The position numbers and the translations under genes are program-made. The notes under the pieces were generated by a model that did no database searches, was not told where the DNA came from, and was given only the letters and a program-made list of their open reading frames with translations. Shown one piece after another: positions 4,166-48,512 of a stretch of DNA of 64,000 nt. How positions within the stretch are numbered: position 1 is the first letter of the stretch; every line of letters begins with the position of its first letter. The DNA comes from Methyloceanibacter stevinii (GTDB lineage Bacteria > Pseudomonadota > Alphaproteobacteria > Rhizobiales > Methyloligellaceae): assembly GCF_001723355.1 (NCBI RefSeq), contig NZ_LPWE01000011.1:62001-126000 (forward strand). Direction: 5' to 3'.

Positions 4166-7100
4166 CTAGCCCGCGTCGCGAAGCTGCTCGGCGGTCTCCA
4201 GATCGACGGACACCAGCTGGCTCACGCCCCGTTCCTGCATGGTCACGCCGAACAGGCGGCTCATACGCGCCATGGTCAGCGGATGGTGGGTGATGATGAG
4301 GAAGCGCGTCTGGGTTTCCTTCGACATTTCCTCCATGAGCCGGCAGAAGCGGTCCACATTGGCGTCGTCCAAAGGCGCGTCCACCTCGTCCAGCACGCAG
4401 ATGGGCGAGGGATTGGTCAGGAACACCGCGAAAATCAACGCCAAGGCGGTCAACGCCTTTTCGCCACCCGACATCAGCGTCAGGGTCTGGGTCTTCTTGC
4501 CCGGGGGCTGCGCGAAAATCTCGAGACCCGATTCGAGCGGATCGTCAGAATCGACGAGCCTCAGCTCGGCCGAGCCGCCGCCGAACAGCGTCTGGAATAG
4601 GCGCGAGAAATGCGTGTTGACCGTGTCGAAGGCCTCGAGGAGCCGTTTGCGCCCTTCGCGGTTGAGGCTGGAAATGCCGGCGCAGTTGCGCGATCGCTTC
4701 TTCGCGTCGCCCTTCTCGCGCTCCATGCCTTCCAGCTGTTCGGCAAGCTCGATCTCTTCCTCTTCGGCGCGCAAGTTCACTCCGCCGAGCCGTTCGCGGT
4801 CGGCCTTGAGCTTGGCCAGGCGCGGCTCGACCTCCTCCAGGGAGGGCAGTTCGGCCCCTTCGGCGAGATTGGCGCGCGGCAGACATTCTTCCGGCGCACA
4901 GTCGACCTGCTCGCGGATGAGCCTGGACAGTCCGGAGCGGCGCTCCCGGGCGCCTTCAAGCCGCGCCTCGCTGCGTGCCTTGCCCTCGCGGGCCGAAGAC
5001 AGACGTTCCTGGACGGCGCGCAGAGCCTTGTCCTGCTCACGCAACGCGGTTTCCGCCTCCGCCAGATCGTCAGCGGCCTTGGACCGGTCGCGTTCCGCCT
5101 CCGCGATAGCGTTCATCAGCTTGCCGCGGCGCTCTTCGATCTCGGCCGGCAGGTTGGCGAGGGCTTCGAGGTCGGCCGTCGTTTCGGATTTGCGCGCGCC
5201 CAGCGTCTCGATGTGCTGTTGCGCGTTCGCGATCCGCTTACGCCAGAGATCCTCTTCGGCCGTGATGGCCTTGATGCGCTCCGTGCGGAGCCGCACTTCG
5301 TTTTCGAAGCTCTTGAGATTCGCTTGTGCCTGCGCCGCCTCGGAGCGGGCATTGGCGGCGTCACCTTGCGCCGCTTCCAGCGCTGCCGTCAGCCCATCCA
5401 GCGCCGTGAGTTCCTGCAGAGCGCCAGCCGCGGCCTCTGCCTGTTCCTGGGCCTCGTCGCGAGCGGCCTTGGTGCGGCTCAACGCTTCAGACAAAGCACC
5501 CAATTGTTTGCTGTTGGCCTGAACTTCGCGCTCCACCGTGGCGATGGCGCTGCGCGTCCGGTCGAGTTCGGCGCGGTCGTCCTTGATCTTGAGGCGAAGG
5601 TCCTTCGTCTTCTGGCTTGCAGCCTGACTCGCCTCGGTCGCGGCCTCGAGCGCCGCTTGGGCCGCCGTCTGCGCGTCCTCGGCATCGACCTTCAGAGCTT
5701 TTAGCGATTCGAGCCGTGTGCGCTCCTCGAGCCGTGCACCTTGCGCCGTCGCCGCCCCCGCTTGGACGCTGTAGCCGTCCCAGCGCCACAGATCGCCGTC
5801 TTTCGAGACGAGGCGCTGGCCGGGGCTCAACACGGCCTGCAGTTCGGCCCCTTGGTCGGCCTCGACCACGCCGATCTGCGACAGCCGGCGCGCTAGGGCC
5901 TCGGGGCCGGTGACGAACTGGCTGAGAGGGATAACGCCGTCAGGCAGGGCCGGATCGTCGGCGCCGGCGGCGAAGTTGCGCCAATGCACCGGGGCGCTGT
6001 CTTCGGCGGCAGCGTCGAGATCATCACCCAGCGCCGCGCCGAGCGCGTGCTCGTAACCACCCTCGATCCGGACATCCTCGACGATCGGGGTCCACTCGTT
6101 CGGCGGCGCCAGGAGCTTCAACAGGGTTGCAAGCTCGGTCTCGATCTCCTGACGGGCAAGGTTGGCGTCGGCAAGCGCGCTCCGAAGCCGCGTCTCCTCG
6201 GCCCTGGCTTGCTCCTCGTCGGCCTCGGCCTGCGTCAGGGCCGTGGCGGCTTCCTCGAGAAGTGCGGAGGCCCGCTCGGCTTCGGTATTCAGTTCGGTAA
6301 GTTTCGCCTCGCCGCCGCTTTCCGCCTCGAGATCGGCGAGCTGCTGCGCCAGATCCTCGGATTGGGACTGAAGCTGGGCGATCCGGCTGGCGAGCCGGGT
6401 TTGATCGTTCTCCAGGCGGCCGCGCTCGGCCCGCGCCTCGGCAAGCTCCGTCGTGGCCGCGCGCAGGGCCGTTTCGGCCTCGCCCAGTACGGTGGCCGCG
6501 GTGGCGGCAGCTTCGCGCAATTGCGGCTCCACGCTGTCGTCAGTGCCGGCGGCCTCGAGCCCGGCCTTTTCCGCGCCTAGGCCTTCCAGAACCTTGTTGG
6601 CTTCGGCGATTTGCTCCTCTTCGCGAGTCAGATCGCGGGCAGTCTGGGTAAGCTGCGTTTCCAGCTCGTCCTGCCGGGCCTTAGCGCGGGCTTCCTCGCG
6701 CTCCAGGGCATCGCGATCCACGGTGAGGCGGTGCAGGACCGCCGCGCGCGCAGCCTCTTCGTCGCGCAAGGGCTGAAGTTTCTCCGCCGCCTCGGACCGG
6801 GCCCGCAAAGCCTCCGCCTCGGCCTTGGTCTCCTCGGCCACTGTCCGCAGCGACTCCTGGAACGCCGCCTCGTCCCCTTCGACCTGCGCACAGGCCGCCA
6901 CCCATTGCAGGTGGTAGGAGAGGGCTTCCATCTCCTGAATCTTCGTCGAAATATCGCGGTAGCGCTTTGCCTGACGGGCCTGCCGGCGCGTCGCCTGAAG
7001 CTGCGAGGTCAACTGACCGATGAGATCGGCGAGGCGGGCGAGATTGCTTTCCGCCGCCTTGAGGCGCAGTTCCGCTTCGTGGCGCCGGCTGTGAAGGCCG

Positions 7101-44059: not shown

Positions 44060-45126
44060 CTAGTGGTTGAGATTGATCATCCGCTCGACGGCGGCGCGGG
44101 CGGCTTCCACCACGGCCGGATCGACGGTCACCTCTTCCTTCATGAAGATGAGGCTATCGAGGATCTTCGGCAGCGTGATGCGCTTCATATGCGGGCAGAG
44201 ATTACAGGGCCGCACGAACTGGGTGTTCGGCGCTTCGACCGCGACGTTGTCGCTCATGGAGCACTCGGTCACGAGCAGCACCTTGGAAGGCTGGTTGTCC
44301 TCGACCCATTTGATCATGCCGGAGGTCGAACCCGTGAAGTCGGACTCGTCGATCACCTCGGGCGGACACTCGGGGTGCGCGATGATCTTCACGCCCGGGT
44401 CGCTTTCGCGATAGGCGCGAAGCTCCTCGGCGGTGAAGCGCTCATGCACTTCGCAGTGACCCTTCCAGGTGATGATCTCCACATCCGTCTGGGTCTGAAC
44501 CCATTTGGCGAGAAACTCGTCGGGGATCATGATCACCCGTTTCGCGCCGAGGGACTCGACCACGCGCACGGCGTTCGACGACGTGCAGCAGATATCGGAC
44601 TCGGCTTTCACGTCCGCCGACGTGTTCACATAGGTGACCACCGGAACGCCGGGATAGGCTTCGCGCAATGCACGGACATCCTCGCCCGTGATCGACTCCG
44701 CCAGCGAACAGCCGGCGCGGCTATCGGGGATCAGAACCTTCTTGTCGGGATTGAGCAGCTTCGACGTCTCCGCCATGAAGTGCACGCCGCACTGAACGAT
44801 CACCTCGGCATCGGCCTTCGCGGCCTCGCGCGCGAGCTGCAAAGAGTCGCCGACCACGTCGGCCACGCAATTGTAGATCTCCGGTGTCATATAGTTATGC
44901 GCCAGGACCACCGCGTCGCGGACCTGCTTCAGATCGTTGATGGCTTTCACGTAAGGCGCGAATTGAGGCCATTCGACAGGCGGAATCACGCGCGCGACAC
45001 GCTCATACAGATGCGCGGTCTCGCGGGCCACTTCGGGCGTATACGTAAGATCGGGAACGAGCTCGGAAGGCAGCACGGCCTGTGCCTTGGCCTCCCAGCC
45101 TCACTCCCAATTTGAACGGATTCCAT
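44060..45126 (-). CDS. nadA: Quinolinate synthase, frame broken at the N-terminus
   Basis: The core [67 protein letters not shown] and PCNLCPHMK contains the three iron-sulfur cysteines of NadA. Translation from the GTG at 45076 gives the main domain. The ATG at 45126 has AGGAGG 9 bp upstream and gives MESVQIGSE. Adding one base at about 45101 then joins [14 protein letters not shown] in frame. The natural start is therefore taken as 45126. NadA makes quinolinate from iminoaspartate and dihydroxyacetone phosphate. It heads the nad operon under two palindromic operators. Confidence 0.93.
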
Positions 45127-45426: not shown

Positions 45427-47007
45427 ATGCGTGGGCATGCTTCATTCGCGATCCTTAAACGGCTGGGGCCATGCGCCCTCGCGCTCCCGCTCGGCCTCCT
45501 GATAATTGCATTGCCGCAGCCCTCTCGCGCGGACGACACCGTCATTCTCGAAATACCCGATCACCCGGGCGCCGGCACGGTTGACGTGCAGGTCGAGGAA
45601 GAAGACGCCGAGCCGCCGGCGGAAGAATTGATGATCGCCGATGCGATCAAGGTGCAGCTCAACAAGCCCAGCCTCCAAAAAGGACAGCATGCGGACGATA
45701 TCGCAGCGCTCACGGAATTTTATCGGACCCGAACCGGCCCTGCATTGTGGCTCACGACCGCTGGGTTCTCGGAGCGCGGCGCTGCGCTGCTGGAGCTCAT
45801 TGGAAAAGCGGATAGCTGGGGACTCGACCCAACCGCTTTTCCCGTGCCGCCGAAAGACTACAAGCCCGGCACGGCGGAGGATCAGGCGGCCACGGAATTG
45901 GCGATCAGCCTCGCCGCGTTGAAATATGCCCGCGCGGCCCGCGGTGGCCTCACCGACCCGAAGAGCATCAACCCGCTCTACGGCCACAGTCCCGCGGTTC
46001 GCCCGCCGGCCGAGGTGCTCAAGGAACTTTCCACCGCCTCCGCGCCGGATGAGGTGCTTCTGGAGCTTCATCCAAAACACGAACAGTTCGTCCGGCTGCG
46101 CAAGGCGCTCGCCAATGCCAAGTCCGAGAACGAGGACCTGCTCCTGCGGCGGAACATGGATCGTTGGCGCTGGATGCCAGAAGACCTCGGCGCGACCTAC
46201 GTTTGGCTGAACATTCCCGAGTTCATGGTGTACGCGGTCGAAGACGGCAAGACGGTCGAGTCCGAAAAGGCCATCGTCGGCGCCACGGGGTCGCCGACCC
46301 CGGTGCTTTCGGCGGACATGACGGAGATCGTGTTCAATCCGGAACGCATCGTGCCATCCGCCGTGATCCGCCGGGACGTGCTGCCCAAGCTGCGGGGCAG
46401 CGGGTCGTTCTTCGGCGGTACCGCCAACACGGTTCTGGATCAATACGGCATCACGGTGAAGAAGGGCGGCAAGACTGTCGACCCCAAGACGATCGACTGG
46501 AGGAAAGCCAACCTGTCCGGTCTCACCTTTGTGCAGAAGCCCGGCCGGACGAACATCATGGGCAACGTGCAGTTCCTCTATCCGAATGACCGGAAGGTCT
46601 TCATGCGGGCCACGACGTTCGGCGGCAAGTTCGCCCGTGACAACCGCGCCGATGGCGCCAAGGACCCACGTGTCGACAACGCGGAAGAACTTGCCGCGCG
46701 TATCCTGGCCGCCAGCAATGACACCAGCAGCGCGACCGTCCGTCAGCAAATCGCAAGCGGCAGGACGAGCCGGGTTAGCCTCAAGAAGCCGATCCCGGTG
46801 CACATGACCTATTTCACGGCCGTGGTCGGTGACGATGGCACGGTGAAGACGTTCGGCGACGTCTACGAACTGGACAATCTTCCGGCGGCAGCCCCGGCGC
46901 CGGCCGAAGATGCCTCGTCCGCTCCAGCGGCGGGTGCGCCGTCCAGCGACGCGCCCGAGTCCGCGCGCAAGCCGATCAACGGCAGCCTTGCGACCACGAG
47001 CCCCTAA
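45427..47007 (+). CDS. L,D-transpeptidase-like (YcbB-type) protein lacking the catalytic Cys motif
   Basis: The 526-residue product has an N-terminal signal segment (PCALALPLGLLIIALPQPSRA), a peptidoglycan-binding-like region (FYRTRTGPALWLTTAGFSERG) and a C-terminal YkuD-type domain: RNMDRWRWMPEDLGATYVWLNIPEF, VIRRDVLPKLRGSG, GRTNIMGNVQFLYPNDRKVFM and PVHMTYFTAVVGDDG. Active family members carry HDTP and SHGC-xR motifs here. This protein has RATTF and, at residues 408-418, ADGAKDPRVDN, so both catalytic His and Cys are absent. Neither other reading frame restores a Cys motif, so this looks like real sequence. It may be a pseudoenzyme or regulator of cell-wall crosslinking. Confidence 0.85.
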   Translation: MRGHASFAILKRLGPCALALPLGLLIIALPQPSRADDTVILEIPDHPGAGTVDVQVEEEDAEPPAEELMIADAIKVQLNKPSLQKGQHADDIAALTEFYRTRTGPALWLTTAGFSERGAALLELIGKADSWGLDPTAFPVPPKDYKPGTAEDQAATELAISLAALKYARAARGGLTDPKSINPLYGHSPAVRPPAEVLKELSTASAPDEVLLELHPKHEQFVRLRKALANAKSENEDLLLRRNMDRWRWMPEDLGATYVWLNIPEFMVYAVEDGKTVESEKAIVGATGSPTPVLSADMTEIVFNPERIVPSAVIRRDVLPKLRGSGSFFGGTANTVLDQYGITVKKGGKTVDPKTIDWRKANLSGLTFVQKPGRTNIMGNVQFLYPNDRKVFMRATTFGGKFARDNRADGAKDPRVDNAEELAARILAASNDTSSATVRQQIASGRTSRVSLKKPIPVHMTYFTAVVGDDGTVKTFGDVYELDNLPAAAPAPAEDASSAPAAGAPSSDAPESARKPINGSLATTSP

Positions 47008-48394
47008 GCGCTTTTCGTAGACGCTTCCGCGTCGGCCGCGTCCTCGCCAATTTCGCTGATGGCTTCGGGGTCGAGCCACCGCATCAGCAGGTAGATCAGG
47101 AAAGATGCGAGCAGGAGCCCCCCGGCTATGGCGGGGGCTTCCCAGTCGCCGCTCGACACGCGCACGACGATCAACCCGAGGCAGACGAGGAACCCCAGCG
47201 CCGGAATGATGCGCGGGATCTCGAAGCGGCCCGGCGGCTCGCCTTTGCGCCCCTTTAAGATGAACAGCGAACCGTTCACGACCGCGAACACGGTGAGCAG
47301 CAGCAGCACCGTGGCGGCGGCCAGCTCGGCGATCGTGCCCACAAGGGCCAGCGGCACCAGGATCAAGAACAAGACCAGGATCGCGATATGGGGTGTGCGG
47401 CGCTGGCGGTGCACCTTGCCCAGGTGATCGGGCAGGAGGTTCTGCCGCGCCATGCCATAGAGCAGGCGCGAGGACGTGACGAAATTCACCAACCCTGTGT
47501 TGGCGACGGCGAAGATGGTGATAGCCGTAAACAGGATGGGTGGAACAATCGGTGCCGCGCGCGCCATGACCTCGGTGATCGGTCCGGGCGCCGCGGCGAG
47601 TTCGTCCCAGGGCACCACCGACACGGCTGTGATCGCCACGGCAATGTAAACGACAGCGGCGATCACCATGCCGATATCAGCCCGAATGGGATCGTCGTCT
47701 CCGGCTCGCGCACTTCCTCGGCGACGTTGTACATGTCCTCGAAGCCGATAAAGGCGAAGAAGGCAAGCACGGCGCCTTGAATGACGATCAGGAACGTCAA
47801 GTCGCCATCCGCGACGGGGGGCGTTTCGAAATAGTCGACCGAGCCCCAATAGGGCAGTCCCACCGCCACCACGAGAAGAAGGCCGGCGACGGACACGACC
47901 GTGCACAGCACGTTCACCCACATGGCTTCCTGGATGCCGCGGAAGATGATCGCGGTCGTCCCGAACAGGTAGCACAGGGCGATGGCGGCGACGGGCAGGC
48001 CGTTCAGGCCGAAAAGCTCGAGGAAGTTCGCGCCGAACACGCGGGATTGTGTGGCGATCGACGTCAGTCCCGAACAGACCAGCGCCAGTCCGACCATGAA
48101 GCTCAGAAGCGGAAAGCCGTAAGCCCGTTGCGCCACGTAGACGGCGCCCGCCGCGCGCGGATAGCGCGAGCCGAGCGAGGCGTAGGACAAGGCCGTCAGC
48201 AGGGCGGCGACGAGCGCGACGACGAAGGCGAGCCAAACGGCGTTGCCGACTTCGCCCGCGGCCTTGCCGATCAGGCCGTATATCCCAGCGCCCAGCATGC
48301 TGCCGAGCCCATACAGCGCCATCTGAACCGGTCCGATCGACCGGTTCAGTGTCGGGCCGCTCTCTTGCTCGGGTGTGGTCAGGTCATCCCCCAT
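47004..48394 (-). CDS. APC-family amino acid permease, frame broken in the middle
   Basis: The N-terminal half has IGPVQMALYGLGSMLGAGIYGLIGKAAGEVG, the conserved first helix of APC transporters, and continues through LGSRYPRAAGAVYVAQRAYG, FEDMYNVAEEVREPETTIP. The C-terminal half, in another frame, begins near IRADIGMVIAAVVYIAVAITAVS and ends with ILVPLALVGTIAELAAATVLLLLTVFAVVN. Adding one base near 47690 joins them into a protein of about 463 residues with about 12 membrane helices. It imports or exchanges amino acids at the inner membrane. The start at 48394 (MGDDLTTPEQ) is probable. The 3' end overlaps the convergent transpeptidase gene by 4 bp. Confidence 0.88.
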
Positions 48395-48512
48395 AGTCCG
48401 TTCAGTACCATGGGCTTGCGGCATCGCCTATGACGGCGTGTGCCTGCCCCAGTCGCGGGCCGCACGTCGCGAGCTTGCTTGGCCAAACGGCTGCGCGTGC
48501 CACGCTGTCCGG

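Follow-up and report, generated by a model that had tools for sequence, protein, structure and literature searches.

The window (the whole 64,000-nucleotide stretch of Methyloceanibacter stevinii DNA that was analysed) holds, between nadA and an amino-acid permease gene, a gene whose product is related to the L,D-transpeptidases. Its features and neighbours, in window coordinates, are as follows.

45427..47007, + strand: pseudo-L,D-transpeptidase gene, an open reading frame of 526 residues with no internal stop
45427..45531, + strand: putative Sec signal peptide, residues 1–35, recognised by inspection (basic start, hydrophobic run, SRA preceding DD)
45706..46110, + strand: Scaffold domain PF20142, residues 94–228 (Pfam E-value 1.1e-25)
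46144..46878, + strand: former catalytic (YkuD) domain, approximately residues 240–484 (PF03734 match over residues 257–392, E-value 2.8e-8)
46345..46347, + strand: Arg307, replacing the pocket Trp (YcbB Trp425; alignment to YcbB 6ntw)
46606..46608, + strand: Arg394, replacing the catalytic His (YcbB His509; same alignment)
46663..46665, + strand: Asp413, replacing the nucleophile Cys (YcbB Cys528; same alignment)
46966..46992, + strand: C-terminal RKPINGSLA, residues 514–522, invariant across six copies without Cys and His
44060..45076, - strand: nadA (PF02445, by Pfam), divergent neighbour and locus marker
47004..48424, - strand: gene for an amino-acid permease, convergent with the pseudo-transpeptidase gene and broken in the window into two overlapping open reading frames

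The counterpart of the split permease is a single open reading frame in loci L046 (6545–7978) and L132 (10320–11738), and its split in the window is either an assembly error or a recent pseudogene. Both Pfam matches of the L,D-transpeptidase-like protein scored above the curated cut-offs (Scaffold, 91.4 vs. 24.6 bits; YkuD, 34.9 vs. 23.4 bits), and the YkuD match ended immediately before the absent His and Cys. No peptidoglycan-binding domain was found by Pfam in this protein, nor in the three Cys-bearing paralogues of the genus and the one orthologue with a GHxCPRV motif that were scanned.

Among solved structures the top phmmer match was E. coli YcbB (6ntw; E-value 1.7e-30), and residues 394, 413 and 307 of the window protein aligned with chain positions 479, 498 and 395, which on adding 30 become His509, Cys528 and Trp425 in the numbering of PMC6478713. 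Passages of that paper name His509 as the base, Cys528 as the nucleophile and Trp425 as a contact of meropenem, whose replacement by Ala confers beta-lactam sensitivity. An earlier note on this DNA had described an L,D-transpeptidase-like protein without catalytic His or Cys, and the alignment agrees: the nucleophile Cys and the catalytic His that characterise an L,D-transpeptidase as an enzyme are both missing, with Asp413 and Arg394 in their places. The window's genome encodes 15 YkuD proteins, the other 14 of which keep the Cys in the expected motif.

An AlphaFold2 model built on 62 aligned proteins (mean pLDDT 81.7, pTM 0.77) had pLDDT values mostly >90 for residues 71–480, with a dip at 321–340, and <50 for residues 1–58 and most of those after 488. 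With Foldseek the model matched nine YcbB/LdtA chains at E-values ≤2.2e-17, followed by single-domain transpeptidases at ≥2.4e-3, and VIA-align gave Z-scores of 20.0–22.3 and an rmsd of 4.0–4.7 over 363–383 residues for seven YcbB/LdtA entries, the other rows shown having Z ≤11.9. The predicted fold, for which the earlier note had advised a model, is that of full-length YcbB. By its domains and structure the window protein is a YcbB-type L,D-transpeptidase in fold and descent.

All 17 genomes examined of Methyloceanibacter, a methylotrophic genus, gave matches. A copy lacking both Cys and His was present in six of the 17 (G000, which is the window's, G014, G004, G009, G013 and G003; the G014 and G004 assemblies are single contigs), and the loss being common to these genomes, the earlier statement that it was not an indel artefact holds. 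In nine genomes (G001, G002, G005, G006, G008, G010, G011, G012 and G015) the copy has HDT and GHxCPRV. The copy of M. marginalis (taken to be G007; locus L050) keeps HDT and has GQSEPRV, with Cys replaced by Glu and Trp by Arg (reading NPER); its frame is broken at two places, and that of M. methanicus (taken to be G013) at one, close to residue 50. The assemblies of both consist of several contigs. As two of the seven Cys-less copies thus have broken frames, certain strains may be able to do without the gene. The M. methanicus break (L047, ~5110–5190) falls in an acidic linker, downstream of which the frame is open and conserved. No copy of the orthologue was recognised in G016; at the end of its contig C47 (L127, 5608–6309), in a fragmented assembly, we observed a Scaffold-YkuD relative from which nearly the whole catalytic core is absent without a break in the frame; its scaffold and C-terminal strands remain.

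The order seen in the window, with nadA divergent upstream and the permease downstream, recurs elsewhere: by tblastn, nadA, the gene and the permease were found together in the five other genomes with a Cys/His-less copy, and likewise in M. marginalis, G002, G012, G008, G011 and G015. G001 has nadA without the permease, the next gene, an ABC-2 permease, being present; G005, on a short contig, also has nadA without the permease; G010 has the permease side only, its contig beginning at the gene; and G006, with a contig of only 4778 bases, has neither flank. Based on the fact that eight of the nine GHxCPRV copies carry nadA and/or the permease, placing them in the same position beside nadA, they are positional orthologues and not look-alike paralogues. 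They are 43–47% identical to the window protein and differ from it in that the His of HDT, the Cys and the Trp are kept, while the Ser and Gly of SHGC are replaced.

For phylogeny, 107 phmmer matches were reduced to 81 proteins, with one open reading frame per locus; nine loci, duplicates or second copies, and matches scoring <105 bits were dropped. The nine loci included the M. marginalis loci L029 and L050, which re-entered only as a piece in a 27-row tree. Removal of L101, L099, L089 and L083, taken to be pieces or near-copies, left 77 proteins. In the tree of these 77, calculated with the motif strip removed, the six Cys/His-less copies were monophyletic (100/100), with a long stem (0.7 changes per column), and lay nested among the GHxCPRV copies; the altered-motif proteins of the genus made up one group (97/82) beside the SHGC paralogues. 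The second tree, of 27 chosen rows and 248 columns, joined M. marginalis to the six as their sister, with support of 100/100 for the group of seven and 100/99 for the six within it. The six copies all stem from one event, and the alignment of homologues that the earlier note had called for shows the loss to be clade-wide; a close homologue with SHGC, which that note had taken as the sign of a local error, was looked for within the clade and none of the six has it. Because the nearest Cys-bearing copies have GHxCPRV and not SHGC, the loss began from an already altered motif, and because the sister M. marginalis is without Cys and Trp yet keeps the His, the loss of Cys and Trp cannot postdate that of the His. 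On the aligned motifs, the parsimonious order would be an alteration of the Ser and Gly of SHGC first, then loss of Cys and Trp, and then loss of His.

Outside Methyloceanibacter, relatives were sought with a profile built from the six copies, which was searched against 30 genomes of the family and 397 of the order; the order search matched 263 of the 397 genomes at an E-value of 1e-40 (252 outside the genus), with at most three candidates scored per genome. Among 32 non-genus loci from 32 genomes (13 from the family search, which cover each non-genus genome of the family once, and 19 from the order search) there were no Cys-less relatives, every locus having retained the Cys, the Trp and either HDT or HDA; rarer or more distant Cys-less cases outside the genus are possible. 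SNGC, SSGC, SAGC and SYGC all occur among these loci, which leaves the second His, that of SHGC, without diagnostic value; the diagnostic residues are the His of HDT and the Cys. In the literature searched, which was represented mainly by titles and the opening lines of abstracts and left most subscription journals outside, we found no report of a Cys-less YcbB-type protein and no matching paper on a YkuD or LD-transpeptidase pseudoenzyme. Papers on pseudoenzymes and from the ubiquitin field came up as well, and by their titles none dealt with YkuD. The three matching passages of a 2025 L,D-transpeptidase review (PMC12729407) describe no Cys-less member, and the matching passages of PMC11841132 hold nothing on Cys-less members.

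Several observations concern other paralogues in the genus. In the window's genome, one Scaffold-YkuD gene with the canonical SHGC (L097, C4:95100–97300) is split into frames of 289 residues (cut by the locus end) and 472 residues, its counterpart in G014 (L096) being a single frame of at least 644 residues, and a Scaffold-YkuD gene on C13 (L005) is similarly split (379 and 359 residues). Near an SHGC Scaffold-YkuD gene on C10 of the window's genome lies a small YkuD protein in which SCGC replaces SHGC (L009, 1363–2100). Paralogues with GHDCVRM, GHECVRM, GYGCVRM or GHNCIRM (L031, L068, L070, L073, L078, L083, L090, L102 and L028) keep the dyad and not the full SHG. Among the fetched loci, G[HY]xC or GHNCIRM paralogues were found in nine of the 11 genomes without the Cys/His-less form vs. 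none of the six with it; as this concerns fetched loci only, one clade and several incomplete genomes, we gave a link with this second paralogue no weight.

Replacement in the six copies reaches further than the catalytic residues. Of 127 positions conserved in ≥85% of 33 Cys-bearing relatives in the genus, 27 are lost in all six, and these cluster near the former active site (lost at 10 of the 22 such positions within residues 372–420 vs. 17 of 105 elsewhere; Fisher p 0.007), although without the motif positions 394, 411 and 413 the excess falls to 7 of 19 vs. 17 of 105 (p 0.055), so that remodelling of the active site beyond the motif is suggested by the aligned sequences, not proven. The replaced positions include Trp307, His394, Cys413, Lys382, Tyr392, Pro374 and His411. 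All 33 Cys-bearing relatives in the genus and all 38 outsiders counted have the pocket Trp, where each of the six has Arg; Lys382 (33/33) has become Gln, Phe294 (33/33) Leu and Pro374 (32/33) Arg. The earlier claim that the flanking fold is well kept thus stands for the fold as modelled and has to be tempered near the old active site, where conserved positions are often replaced. Position 394 is Arg in five copies and Ser in one, and position 413 is Asp in four of the six and Glu in the other two and in M. marginalis, giving an acid in seven of seven. Residues newly fixed across the six include Arg307, Lys412 and Arg374. Arg307 occurs together with the acid at 413 in all seven Cys-less copies, and the two might conceivably pair across the old pocket, closing it.

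Selection was measured by Nei-Gojobori dN/dS on seven chosen pairs out of 15 per gene. The Cys/His-less copies gave 0.133 for the closest pair and 0.096–0.217 over the seven, the wider-pair values being rough because dS exceeds 1 in those five pairs; in the same genomes the SHGC paralogue, which in the window's genome lies at C10:384229, gave 0.082–0.164, nadA 0.027–0.063, the ABC-2 permease 0.041–0.077 and nadB 0.055–0.209, and the Cys/His-less gene exceeded nadA in every one of the seven pairs. By region, pN/pS in the Cys-less copies vs. the SHGC paralogue was 0.26 vs. 0.24 in the scaffold, 0.18 vs. 0.16 in residues 240–371, 0.22 vs. 0.12 in the strip 372–420 and 0.24 vs. 0.19 in residues 421–484 (G014 was left out of the Cys-less group, and the SHGC group takes in one genome, G006, beyond the six). 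The GHxCPRV group, with G006 left out, had higher values (0.36–0.48), which come from a broader sequence set and so are not directly comparable. As the regional values lie near those of the paralogue, the former catalytic domain is still constrained, and nearly as much as the active one; constraint on the strip 372–420, which surrounds the former active site, is weaker than in the SHGC paralogue. The six copies are under purifying selection, in line with the selection that the earlier note had proposed, and the protein is a pseudoenzyme in that, within an active family, its lineage has lost conserved catalytic residues and selection continues after the loss.

Because the dyad and the Trp are lost and yet the protein is kept nearly as strictly as a working relative, a non-enzymatic job in the envelope is probable, and our favoured conclusion, held with good though not full confidence, is that the gene encodes an exported homologue of the YcbB-type L,D-transpeptidases, no longer catalytic, which has been kept for such a job. 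Judging from its N-terminal sequence only, the protein would be exported to the periplasm, where it would be expected not to acylate a stem peptide; it would most likely act through protein–protein contacts, using its scaffold domain and the old cleft with its altered charge, and, by analogy with DipM, would probably be a partner of the cell's true Scaffold-YkuD transpeptidases or a decoy for them. Somewhat short of even odds, we speculate that it is a pseudo-L,D-transpeptidase regulating or anchoring true L,D-transpeptidases, with nested stages of loss alive in one genus: SHGC; GHxCPRV with the dyad kept; His still present after the loss of Cys and Trp; and the dyad gone with the pocket re-charged (Arg307 and Asp/Glu413).

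The earlier note had also proposed peptidoglycan binding, read here as a protein still holding stem peptides in the old cleft, and the kept fold and the invariance of Arg407 and Arg415 across all 62 aligned proteins are consistent with this. However, replacement of the Trp in all six and of other pocket positions (Lys382, Phe294 and Pro374) speaks against a simple retention of substrate binding, making donor-peptide binding in the old cleft less likely and this alternative rather unlikely as a whole; that Pfam finds no peptidoglycan-binding domain weighs little, as the Cys-bearing relatives scanned are also without one. Decay to a pseudogene might be read from the long stem branch and the two broken copies, but dN/dS is 0.10–0.22 among copies already without the dyad and the six rows read contain no stop (the M. 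methanicus row begins past its frame break); for the clade we rejected this explanation on dN/dS despite the broken copies, and consider it improbable. New chemistry, using the acid at 413 with the neighbouring Lys412 or with Arg394, would fit the acid in all seven Cys-less copies and the Lys412 invariant in six, but an Asp/Glu interchange and Arg/Ser at 394 would be unusual for a catalytic pair and no base is fixed, so we regard it as highly improbable. A local sequencing or assembly error, which the split genes nearby and elsewhere in the window's assembly might have suggested, is ruled out for practical purposes by six assemblies, two of them single-contig, that have the same loss.

The fold of DipM and the LytM factors is unrelated to the YkuD fold. 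The inactive LytM factors and DipM offer a working analogy only for the retained, non-catalytic protein proposed here, being likewise of a cell-wall enzyme fold without catalysis, and DipM has demonstrated partners, whereas any partner of the window protein would be putative (PMC10336132). E. coli YcbB (LdtD) and V. cholerae LdtA have the Scaffold and YkuD domains and the overall fold in common with the window protein, which, unlike them, is without the catalytic His, the Cys and the pocket Trp and, like its genus paralogues, without the Pfam peptidoglycan-binding domain. DpaA/LdtF is another YkuD-fold protein that is not an L,D-transpeptidase; unlike the window protein, it keeps a catalytic Cys143 and is an active amidase (passages of PMC10653827 and PMC12729407).

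Inactive relatives of wall hydrolases, such as DipM, act as regulators (PMC10336132), and if the role we infer is true, the window protein would be a candidate for an equivalent regulator among relatives of the L,D-transpeptidases; were it to regulate or anchor true L,D-transpeptidases, it would be for 3,3-crosslinking the counterpart of what inactive LytM factors are for autolysins. In Agrobacterium, also of the Hyphomicrobiales, L,D-transpeptidases matter for polar growth and number 14 copies (PMC11527210). As several stages of the loss persist in Methyloceanibacter, most of them at one locus, the genus offers a ready series on the passage from enzyme to non-enzyme.
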